Source of the DNA: Intrasporangium calvum DSM 43043
GTDB taxonomy: Bacteria; Actinomycetota; Actinomycetes; Actinomycetales; Dermatophilaceae
DNA length: 64,000 bases
Direction: 5' to 3'
Assembly: GCF_000184685.1 (NCBI RefSeq)
Contig: NC_014830.1
Coordinates: forward strand, 2,976,001 to 3,040,000
Below, one piece after another: positions 55,238 through 56,790 of this stretch; position 1 is the stretch's first letter; each line of letters opens with the position of its first letter. The position numbers and the translations under genes are program-made. The notes below the pieces were generated by a model. The model saw nothing but the letters and a program-made list of their open reading frames with translations. It was not told the DNA's origin and did no database searches.

Positions 55238-55381
55238 GACCCAGGCCCGCAACTTTCGGACCCGCGTCCGATAGTGGGCGGCCGCTCCCGACCCAGGCCC
55301 GCAACTTTCGGACCCGCGTCCGATAGTGGGCGGCCACCCCGACCCAGGCCCGCAACTTTCGGACCCGCGTCCGATAGTGGG
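55238..55381. repeat. Three 51-52-bp hairpin repeats
   Basis: Near-identical units at 55238-55289, 55290-55340 and 55341-55381 (last partial), starting GACCCAGGCCCGCAACTTTC. Each contains TCGGAC-CCGC-GTCCGA, a 6-bp perfect stem extended by ACT/AGT past one mismatch. Between the convergent MFS and CsoR-operon genes; probably acts as terminator. Confidence 0.9.
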
Positions 55382-55400: not shown

Positions 55401-56234
55401 CTACCTTCCTGGGACTCCGCAGACCGGCGGCTCGGTGAGGCGGCGAGCCAATGCGGCGCCGCCGAGCACCATCGCGAGGGCGGCCCGCTCCCCCTCGTGC
55501 GCCGTCTCGATGGCGAGCCACGGACCGGCGACGGCGAGAGCCAGGCCGGCCACGGCGCACGGCGCGCAGCCGAGGTCGGGTCGCCACCCTTCGCCCGGCC
55601 GCGGGACGAACAGGGCCAGCGCGAGGGACGACAGCACCGCGGCTCCGGCGGTCAGCACCGACCAGAGTGGCGCGTCCACCAGCGGCCAGCCCACGGTCGC
55701 CCCGATGAGCACGAGCAGTCCGACGAAGATCAGCACGGCCGCCACCCGCCGCCGCTGCGGCCACCGCACCCTCTCCCCGGACGCGGCAGTCGGACGCACG
55801 CCGCCGAGGATGGTCTGACCAGTGAGGATGTCCCCGACACCGGGAGCTGCCGGCCCACCGGCCCGCGCCCCCCGGAGGTCGTCCTCCAACGCGGTCAGGG
55901 CGTCGAGGCCGCCTGCGACGTACTCCCCGGAGCCGGGCCGGGCGGCGAGCGGCCCGCTGATGCCCTGCCAGGCTGACCTGACCTCCTCGATCACGGCCTG
56001 GGCGCGCTCCGCAGCCACGGCCCCGGTCGGCTCGCCGGCTTCACGCCGCAGCGCACGCCGCACGTCCGACAGCGCGGCCGCCGCGCCCTCGCTCGCCTTG
56101 ACGGTCTGCCGGGTGCCGTCGACCCGGCAGAGCGGGGCCCCGCCGGTCGTCGCCTCCAGCGCGGCCAGGGCCGCGGCCTGGTGCCGCTCGACGATCTCGA
56201 GTGGTGCTGCACTGCGCGGCGGCGACTCGGTCAT
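55401..56234 (-). CDS. Membrane protein with GCAPC motif
   Basis: 277 residues. The N-terminal ~150 residues are soluble and helical (EIVERHQAAALAALEATTGG, AVIEEVRSAWQGISGPLAAR); then about four membrane helices (VAAVLIFVGLLVLIGATVGW, LTAGAAVLSSLALALFVPRP) with DLGCAPCAVAGLALAVAG, a CxxC at a helix edge. ATG 56234 overlaps the stop of the upstream gene. Family not recognised; shares the CxxC-in-membrane feature and the CsoR-type promoter with its neighbour. Confidence 0.6.
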   Translation of the reverse strand: MTESPPRSAAPLEIVERHQAAALAALEATTGGAPLCRVDGTRQTVKASEGAAAALSDVRRALRREAGEPTGAVAAERAQAVIEEVRSAWQGISGPLAARPGSGEYVAGGLDALTALEDDLRGARAGGPAAPGVGDILTGQTILGGVRPTAASGERVRWPQRRRVAAVLIFVGLLVLIGATVGWPLVDAPLWSVLTAGAAVLSSLALALFVPRPGEGWRPDLGCAPCAVAGLALAVAGPWLAIETAHEGERAALAMVLGGAALARRLTEPPVCGVPGR

Positions 56235-56767
56235 GACGCACCCGCGACTCGGCACGCGCCGTCAGCGCACGGGCGGCGTCTGGCGGCATAGCCGACCGCC
56301 CCCACGAGGGCCAGGAGCGAGATCGCGGCGAGCCACGGCTGGAGCGGCTCCCAGATGCCGAGGGCACCGGACGTGCCCAAGGCGATGAGGACGATCTTGT
56401 TGCAGACCGGGCACGCCACGGCGAACAGGGCCAGGCCCGCTGCACCGACCGCCGGTGCGTTCGAGTCCTCGCCCGCCACCGAGCCGTCGGCGGCAACGAC
56501 CCGCCGGGCCCGCTGCAGACCGAACCAGAGGCCGGTGAGGACGCTCGTCGCCAGCAGGACCCACGGCTCCCAGGCGCGCACCGGCACCTGTCGCCCGAAG
56601 ACCGGGTTCGGCACGATGTCCGTCGGCACGCCGATGACGAGGAACGTCGCCGCAGCCGCCAGCAGGCTGATGCCGAGGTGGGGCCTGGGCCGTTCCCAGT
56701 GAGCCGTCTCGTCGGGCTGCGCACCGGCGCCCGGGTCCGGAGCGTGGGTGAGGTCGTCGGACACCAT
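56231..56767 (-). CDS. Membrane protein with CPVCNK motif
   Basis: 178 residues from ATG 56767 (181 if ATG 56776 is used). About four helices; LALFAVACPVCNKIVLIALG places a CPVCNK motif at the membrane, and the tail has RRRPCADGACR. A CsoR-type operator covers the first ATG, so the gene is probably metal (copper) induced. CPVCNK proteins are uncharacterised as far as I know; metal or thiol handling is inference. Coupled to the GCAPC gene downstream. Confidence 0.65.
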   Translation of the reverse strand: MVSDDLTHAPDPGAGAQPDETAHWERPRPHLGISLLAAAATFLVIGVPTDIVPNPVFGRQVPVRAWEPWVLLATSVLTGLWFGLQRARRVVAADGSVAGEDSNAPAVGAAGLALFAVACPVCNKIVLIALGTSGALGIWEPLQPWLAAISLLALVGAVGYAARRRPCADGACRVAGAS

Positions 56768-56774
56768 TCGATCC

Positions 56775-56790
56775 ATACCCCCTAGGGTAT
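56775..56790. promoter_or_regulatory. CsoR/RicR-type operator
   Basis: ATACCCCCTAGGGTAT: perfect ATACCC-N4-GGGTAT arms, the classic copper-responsive CsoR box. It overlaps the alternative ATG at 56776 and lies 8 nt before ATG 56767 of the minus-strand operon. A TATACC -10-like hexamer overlaps it. Confidence 0.7.

Follow-up and report, generated by a model that had tools for sequence, protein, structure and literature searches.

The P1-P2 operon of Intrasporangium calvum DSM 43043 is on balance best read as a persulfide-defence operon that is controlled by a CstR-type repressor and that contributes a MerT-like cysteine relay, P1 and perhaps P2, to the membrane. The operon lies in a 64,000-nucleotide stretch of the chromosome (NC_014830.1, positions 2,976,001 to 3,040,000), referred to here as the window, and the operon and its operator are given in window coordinates.

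Organization of the operon and its probable operator

The operon and its operator comprise three features:

56775 to 56790, no strand assigned: CstR/ScCsoR-type operator ATACCC-N4-GGGTAT, sequence ATACCCCCTAGGGTAT, an exact match
56231 to 56767, minus strand: P1, an open reading frame of 178 amino acids with four predicted membrane helices, CPVCNK (residues 119 to 124), a C-terminal CADGAC and a MerT-like C-terminal half
55401 to 56234, minus strand: P2, an open reading frame of 277 amino acids with a predicted N-terminal helical bundle (residues about 11 to 125) and a four-helix core containing GCAPC

A first-pass annotation of this DNA had described a CsoR-family box ahead of a coupled operon for two uncharacterised CxxC membrane proteins, and the description is borne out in its main points. 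The box is exact, CPVCNK and GCAPC are both present in the translations, and the genes overlap by the 4 nt ATGA, the TCATGA at the 3' end of P1 enclosing an ATG in the P2 frame. Because of this overlap, P2 is probably a protein of 277 residues beginning at 56234 rather than one of 284 residues beginning at an upstream GTG. The annotation also placed the box across the start of the operon. This holds for an in-frame ATG at 56776, which would give a P1 of 181 amino acids, but not for the ATG at 56767, which in our judgement is the likelier start and lies 7 nt downstream of the box. The operon is flanked by an aldo/keto reductase gene and an MFS transporter gene, and genes for a copper ATPase, a chaperone or CsoR are absent both from it and from its flanks, as had been noted previously.

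The copper-sensing CsoR of Streptomyces lividans is described as binding the consensus ATATACCCCTNAGGGGTATAT, in which TAC-X9-GTA corresponds to a spacing of N5 (PMC3902906). ScCsoR, a sulfane-sulfur sensor of Streptomyces coelicolor, is described as binding a 16-bp palindrome, ATACC-N6-GGTAT, which corresponds to N4, and as repressing a persulfide dioxygenase, a rhodanese, a sulfite transporter and itself (PMC7533328). The site at 56775 to 56790 matches the sulfane-sulfur palindrome exactly and, being N4, does not match the copper operator. The ScCsoR motif was, by the same account, derived by MEME jointly with the sites of the copper regulators CsoR of Geobacillus and RicR of Mycobacterium and is said to resemble them (PMC7533328); thus, spacing alone cannot tell copper from sulfur. 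When up to two mismatches are allowed, the window contains three N4 sites (0.32 expected from shuffles). An identical box is found at the P1 orthologue of a congener (locus L020).

Two kinds of repeat were also observed. A 41-nt unit is present in three direct copies (55238-55278, 55290-55330 and 55341-55381) in the interval separating the 3' end of P2 from that of the MFS gene. The genome has 768 copies of the 12-mer CAGCGGCATACG, of which 382 are forward and 386 reverse, versus 0 and 1 for the reversed-pattern control; the 12-mer looks like a dispersed genome-wide repeat, which we take to be comparable to uptake-signal or HIP1 repeats. Its positions in the window include 944, 5145, 57006, 57841 and 63453. 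AGCGGCATAC occurs 13 times in the window versus 0.12 expected.

N4 boxes and CsoR-family regulators of the genome

The 4.02-Mb genome contains nine exact N4 boxes where 0.08 are expected from base composition, while sites with one mismatch number three against an expected 3.6. Since the latter number is at chance level, the exact boxes are the signal. With up to two mismatches there are 21 sites, compared with 12 for the reversed-pattern control. Genes at the boxes, like the copper genes discussed below, were named by eye and the names then checked with HMMs. The targets of the nine exact boxes are as follows:

a rhodanese with a lipoprotein-like start (start judged by eye)
thioredoxin-DUF302
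an MBL-rhodanese (persulfide dioxygenase-like)
a type III sulfide:quinone reductase (SQR) with DsrC/TusE and DsrE
TauE/SafE
a second rhodanese
a CsoR-family gene encoding two Cys and no His
the P1-P2 operon
tRNA-Gln, the box overlapping its 5' end (L009:2824-2839, genome C1:2605323)

Six of the nine boxes thus stand at sulfur or thiol genes, and one each at a CsoR-family gene, P1-P2 and tRNA-Gln. The distance from box to start at the eight protein-gene sites is 7 to 82 nt. The one-mismatch sites are at 898273, 2349823 and 3945120, and only the last of these has a credible context, an MBL-rhodanese gene. The N5 boxes have other targets. The two exact ones stand before a csoR gene whose product has the metal-site His and before a gene for an HMA protein. 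Of the three with one mismatch, two are followed by genes for P-type ATPases that carry HMA or cupredoxin domains, and the remaining one has no recognised copper gene. Within the host genome, N4 and N5 spacing splits sulfur boxes from copper boxes.

The first-pass annotation had advised a search for further boxes and for csoR elsewhere, and the genome holds, besides the boxes, four CsoR-family genes. Two encode Cys-His-Cys and two Cys-Gly-Cys proteins. Both of the His-less regulators have C35 and C64, with Gly at the position of the His of copper CsoR. The same box is therefore found at sulfur-detoxification genes and at a two-cysteine regulator that lacks the metal-binding His. The solved structures nearest to this boxed regulator are 7mq1 and 7mq2, deposited under the csoR name; 7MQ2 is labelled CstR in PMC9774590. 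Its best NCBIfam match is RicR, far under the cut-off (44.9 of 175 bits). The second His-less gene is followed by an AhpD-like gene (named by eye) near a boxed rhodanese gene (L011:3636-4297).

The regulon assignment is well supported, and it is very likely that P1-P2 is under the control of a CstR-type repressor, which would bind the box. The box would be the operator for this repressor, a protein with two Cys and no metal-binding His that is encoded elsewhere on the chromosome under the same box. A build-up of sulfide, persulfide or polysulfide would modify the cysteines of the repressor and cause it to leave the box. P1-P2 would then be transcribed alongside SQR-DsrC-DsrE, MBL-rhodanese, the rhodaneses, thioredoxin-DUF302 and TauE. 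By analogy with ScCsoR of S. coelicolor, persulfide may be the inducer.

Some sites have unusual contexts. An N4 palindrome overlapping tRNA-Gln recurs in 43/149 genomes of the host's family (18/53 genera) and may be either a real operator or a pairing of the leader with the tRNA start. A SHOCT gene and a multicopper oxidase gene lie near a one-mismatch N4 box (L014:2824-4595, by HMM), and a multicopper oxidase and a SHOCT gene, named by eye, lie beside a CstR cluster (L069:2730-5096). Both arrangements hint at a link between copper and sulfur.

Relatives and possible role of P1 and P2

Neither P1 nor P2 attains a cut-off in Pfam or NCBIfam, and the N-terminal domain of P2 has no paralogue in the genome and no Pfam match. 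In the AF2 model of P1 (pLDDT 75, pTM 0.65), four helical regions are of membrane length; the third is broken at residues 117 to 119, beside the CPVC at 119 to 122. Judging from charge, both termini of P1 may be cytosolic. The model of P2 has a low pLDDT of 60. Neither model matched a PDB structure at E <= 0.001, and the P1 profile gave only weak GPCR matches among PDB sequences (E >= 0.04). VIA-align gave P1 Z values of up to 6.3 to MAPEG/TSPO helical bundles, within the range that the tool gives for common arrangements, and P1 is assigned to no fold on this basis.

MerT hands Hg(II) inward via Cys pairs. Profile comparison identifies it as a distant homologue of P1: hhalign against one MerT sequence gave a probability of 92% and an E value of 6.2e-7 with alignment A3 (32% identity over 74 columns) and an E value of 1.4e-7 with alignment A1, the probabilities for the two alignments ranging from 92 to 94%. 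The C-terminal CADGAC of P1 is paired with CKPGEVC of MerT. Controls (reversed and shuffled MerT, MerE, CcdA, TauE, part of an MFS protein and one further membrane protein) all had E >= 0.03, and the worst decoy in the run was the reversed P2 core (E 7.6e-5). Against the Pfam MerT family (PF02411), P1 scores 11.8 bits versus a gathering score of 32.9, and 9/28 members of P1 in the host's family have sub-threshold matches. Over 198 Actinomycetota genomes the Pfam model finds nothing above the cut-off; seven genomes have sub-threshold matches, four of them at loci with P1-type CPxCN proteins. P1 has CPVC instead of the vicinal CC of the first MerT helix. From its sequence, P1 appears to be distantly related to MerT and is not placed in the MerT family. 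CPVCNK is present in all 28 family members, a set collected without that pattern; its invariance in alignment A3 is in part built in, the members having been picked with the pattern V[GA]CPVCNK. Distant relatives have CPTCN or CPICN in place of CPVCN.

A possible kinship of P1 and P2 is supported by comparison of profiles (probability 88-92%, versus 1-10% for reversed profiles), whereas the single-sequence P2 core scored a non-significant 16% and the reversed core 62%. In a background set of 150 membrane ORFs, the three best were linked to P1 or P2 (a Cryobacterium ORF adjacent to P1, haloarchaeal hyp1 and a P2) and the fourth, the best unrelated one, had an E value of 0.0023. The comparison of P2 with MerT gave an E value of 0.32.

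P1 matches are found in 33/149 genomes of the host's family, its own included, and the 30 family loci used are the 34 matches minus three genomes and one second copy without a locus. At least 587 relatives are present in named genomes (pattern V[GA]CPVCNK), and the best 80 of these were used for counts of boxes and neighbours. Among the P1 matches listed, the closest is that of Intrasporangium calvum PheN6. Of the best 80 named relatives, 21 have an N4 box with no more than one mismatch in the 400 nt upstream of P1, as do 12 of the 30 family loci. The two sets share contigs, hence the combined figure of 33/110 rows becomes 28/94 when rows sharing a 40-amino-acid core are merged. Lack of the box at orthologues would have spoken against the first-pass annotation; it is present in these rows but absent from the same 400 nt in the other 77/110. 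Each of the other spacings from 0 to 12 occurs in at most 3 of the 110 rows. The best 80 loci together span 768 kb and contain 36 exact N4 sites, whereas exact sites spaced by N3, N5 or N6 are absent.

A CstR orthologue (E <= 1e-20) accompanies P1 in 33/33 P1-bearing family genomes, compared with 116/149 genomes overall (Fisher 7.7e-5, ignoring kinship). P2 is less common, with matches in 13/149 family genomes, its own included and one of them weak. CstR is present in 12 of these 13 genomes, which is not significant (p 0.17, kinship ignored). Co-occurrence of the two proteins, which the annotation had proposed as a check, is partial: eight of the 13 P2-bearing genomes have P1, and P1 is present in 33. 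The stretch around P2 contains an exact N4 box in 11/13 genomes, the exceptions being L057, where about 200 nt of upstream sequence is available on the contig, and L061, whose match is weak and N-terminal. In L069 a rhodanese gene stands between the box and P2. P2-like partners beside P1 are rare (1/115 small ORFs near P1 at E < 1e-3 in the best 80 of at least 587 loci).

Sulfur and thiol genes are frequent neighbours of P1. In the best 80 of at least 587 loci, sulfur genes are found in 23 and DsbA-like or CcdA genes in 29, with at least one of the two kinds in 39. Counting exact N4 boxes as well brings the number to 48, and the other 32 lack all three at the thresholds applied. The order RhodLP-P1-Trx-Rhod-CstR is found behind N4 boxes in L118, L129 and L130 and Trx-P1 behind an N4 box in L144 (neighbours named by blastp against own or family proteins; gene names in the L020 and L069 sets were given by eye, with an HMM check limited to single proteins). 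On a Streptomyces plasmid, CstR-P1-thioredoxin domain-CcdA faces rhodanese-TauE-rhodanese-rhodanese, and P1 is about 0.7 kb from the CstR-type regulator, which is annotated as 'metal-sensitive'. Rhodococcus pREL1 has an exact N4 box between CcdA/thioredoxin-domain genes and the divergent P1-DUF302, and the P1 locus of Arthrobacter pLDW-10 includes MBL, DsrE, thioredoxin-domain and CcdA genes. The alphaproteobacterium Azospirillum has DsbD-DsbA-P1-DUF2892-sulfurtransferase-MBL near TauE, YeeE/YedE and an ArsR-family gene. The haloarchaeon Haloprofundus has TauE-MBL-thioredoxin domain-hyp1-P1 and a YeeE/YedE gene in the same locus; hyp1 is a second CxxC protein and overlaps P1 by 4 nt. Cytochrome c and DsbA-family genes surround P1 in Tabrizicola. 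In Haloterrigena, one of two haloarchaeal loci, thioredoxins, a copper-binding protein and a multicopper oxidase are nearby. Cryobacterium lactosi has, in tandem, an N4 box, P1, a P1-like protein whose third membrane segment has no CxxC, and a rhodanese-like protein that begins like a lipoprotein (L145:4902-6437).

P1-P2 probably has a role in persulfide defence. What the proteins would do there is a matter for more tentative proposals. MerT-related P1, perhaps with P2, could pass on sulfane sulfur or else the reducing equivalents needed for its removal; such a relay would link extracytoplasmic rhodanese or DsbA-like proteins with cytosolic thioredoxin or rhodanese, much as MerT passes Hg(II). 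That the cargo of the P1 cysteines is sulfane sulfur is a tentative suggestion. Equally conjectural is the broader proposal that P1 founds an unnamed family of MerT-related transmembrane cysteine relays, which would carry sulfane sulfur from one side of the membrane to the other and so connect rhodanese or DsbA-like proteins outside the cytoplasm with thioredoxin, rhodanese and persulfide dioxygenase in the cytosol. In some genomes such a relay would have a CxxC partner encoded next to it (P2 here, hyp1 in two haloarchaea), and the family would have been recruited under unrelated sulfur regulators, of CstR type in actinobacteria and possibly of ArsR type in alphaproteobacteria.

The proteins might instead carry electrons, not sulfur, as CcdA/DsbD-like membrane thiol-disulfide oxidoreductases. 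Cytosolic thioredoxin would be the electron source and a DsbA-like protein outside the cytoplasm the acceptor, and the transfer would undo the disulfides and persulfides of sulfur stress. The DsbA-like and/or CcdA genes in 29 of the best 80 (of at least 587) loci, the thioredoxin-domain and CcdA genes adjoining P1, the thioredoxin gene under the same N4 box and the predicted position of CPVC at a helix break all fit this alternative. However, P1 lacks profile similarity to CcdA (hhalign E 0.13) and no such family is among the Pfam matches listed; in addition, CcdA/DsbD is already present beside P1 in those loci, and the similarity that was found is to MerT, a carrier. Electron transfer is less likely than the persulfide-defence operon with a MerT-like relay. 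The first-pass annotation had suggested copper handling or thiol-redox chemistry; the thiol-redox part stays live, whereas copper as the signal is not supported, given the sulfur content of the regulon, the N4 spacing and the neighbours of P1.

A copper-handling operon under a copper-sensing CsoR is accordingly improbable. The box does belong to the CsoR family, Cu-type csoR genes are present in the genome, a likeness of the N4 motif to sites bound by two copper regulators has been described (PMC7533328), P1 of Haloterrigena lies near copper proteins, and one of the one-mismatch N4 boxes precedes genes for a SHOCT protein and a multicopper oxidase. Nevertheless, exact N4 boxes stand at sulfur and thiol genes and exact N5 boxes at csoR and HMA genes, an N5 box is found within 400 nt upstream of P1 in 0/110 rows, and copper genes occur in only 2 of the best 80 (of at least 587) loci, as csoR-HMA about 3.6 kb away. 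It is highly improbable that P1 is a true soft-metal (mercury-type) transporter merely sitting in sulfur loci: its similarity to MerT includes the C-terminal Cys pair and 9/28 members have sub-threshold Pfam MerT matches, but these are under the cut-off, CPxCN replaces the CC of the aligned MerT, and no mer gene is annotated in seven annotated regions around P1 relatives.

Comparison with known systems

Among regulatory systems, the ScCsoR circuit of S. coelicolor (sco0618-0621), as described in PMC7533328, shares with the persulfide-defence regulon proposed here the N4 palindrome, a two-cysteine CsoR-family repressor and targets that include a PDO with a rhodanese domain, a rhodanese, TauE and the regulator itself. 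It is a set of four genes, whereas the nine exact Intrasporangium boxes, known here from sequence, are scattered over the chromosome and add SQR-DsrC-DsrE, thioredoxin-DUF302 and P1-P2. The genes sco0622-0623 adjoin the S. coelicolor circuit yet are reported to escape ScCsoR control. The cst operon of Staphylococcus aureus and Enterococcus faecalis is likewise described as placing sulfurtransferases under CstR, a persulfide-sensing two-Cys CsoR-family repressor, but the accounts of it in PMC9405070 and PMC9774590, as far as they bear on this operon, name no P1/P2-like protein. TTHA1953 of Thermus thermophilus is a CsoR-family protein with two Cys that controls sulfur genes dispersed away from its own gene and, according to PMC10318464, shares no sites with a copper CsoR paralogue. 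The same account gives it a Sox system as target, a different operator sequence and no response to NaHS in vitro, unlike the system proposed here. Copper roles may be over-assigned to such regulators and their targets, given the N4/N5 split in this genome and the 'metal-sensitive' annotation of a CstR-type regulator.

MerT (PF02411; the copy on Cupriavidus metallidurans pMOL28) resembles P1 in the helix with the cysteine motif, the next helix and the C-terminal Cys pair. It differs in that P1 has two extra N-terminal helices, CPxC for CC and sulfur-gene neighbours. The thiol reductants CcdA/DsbD have cysteine motifs in membrane helices. They are neighbours of P1 but, at an hhalign E of 0.13, share no profile similarity with it.

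Few membrane proteins are known that handle sulfane sulfur or thiosulfate, and YeeE/YedE is one example. The unnamed P1 family (at least 587 relatives), often with a persulfide-type operator and distant kin of MerT, is a concrete candidate for such a function. P1 and P2 have no Pfam match to a YeeE/YedE-type family, and the roles of P1 and YeeE/YedE probably differ because the two share loci in Azospirillum and Haloprofundus. YedE1E2, a zero-valent sulfur transporter, and YeeE/YeeD, for thiosulfate uptake, are each described as a membrane protein with a partner, conserved Cys and a sulfur cargo (PMC10812762, PMC11073785), YedE1E2 being a complex of two membrane proteins (PMC10812762). On these accounts, YedE1E2 and YeeE-YeeD are the closest functional analogues of P1(-P2).
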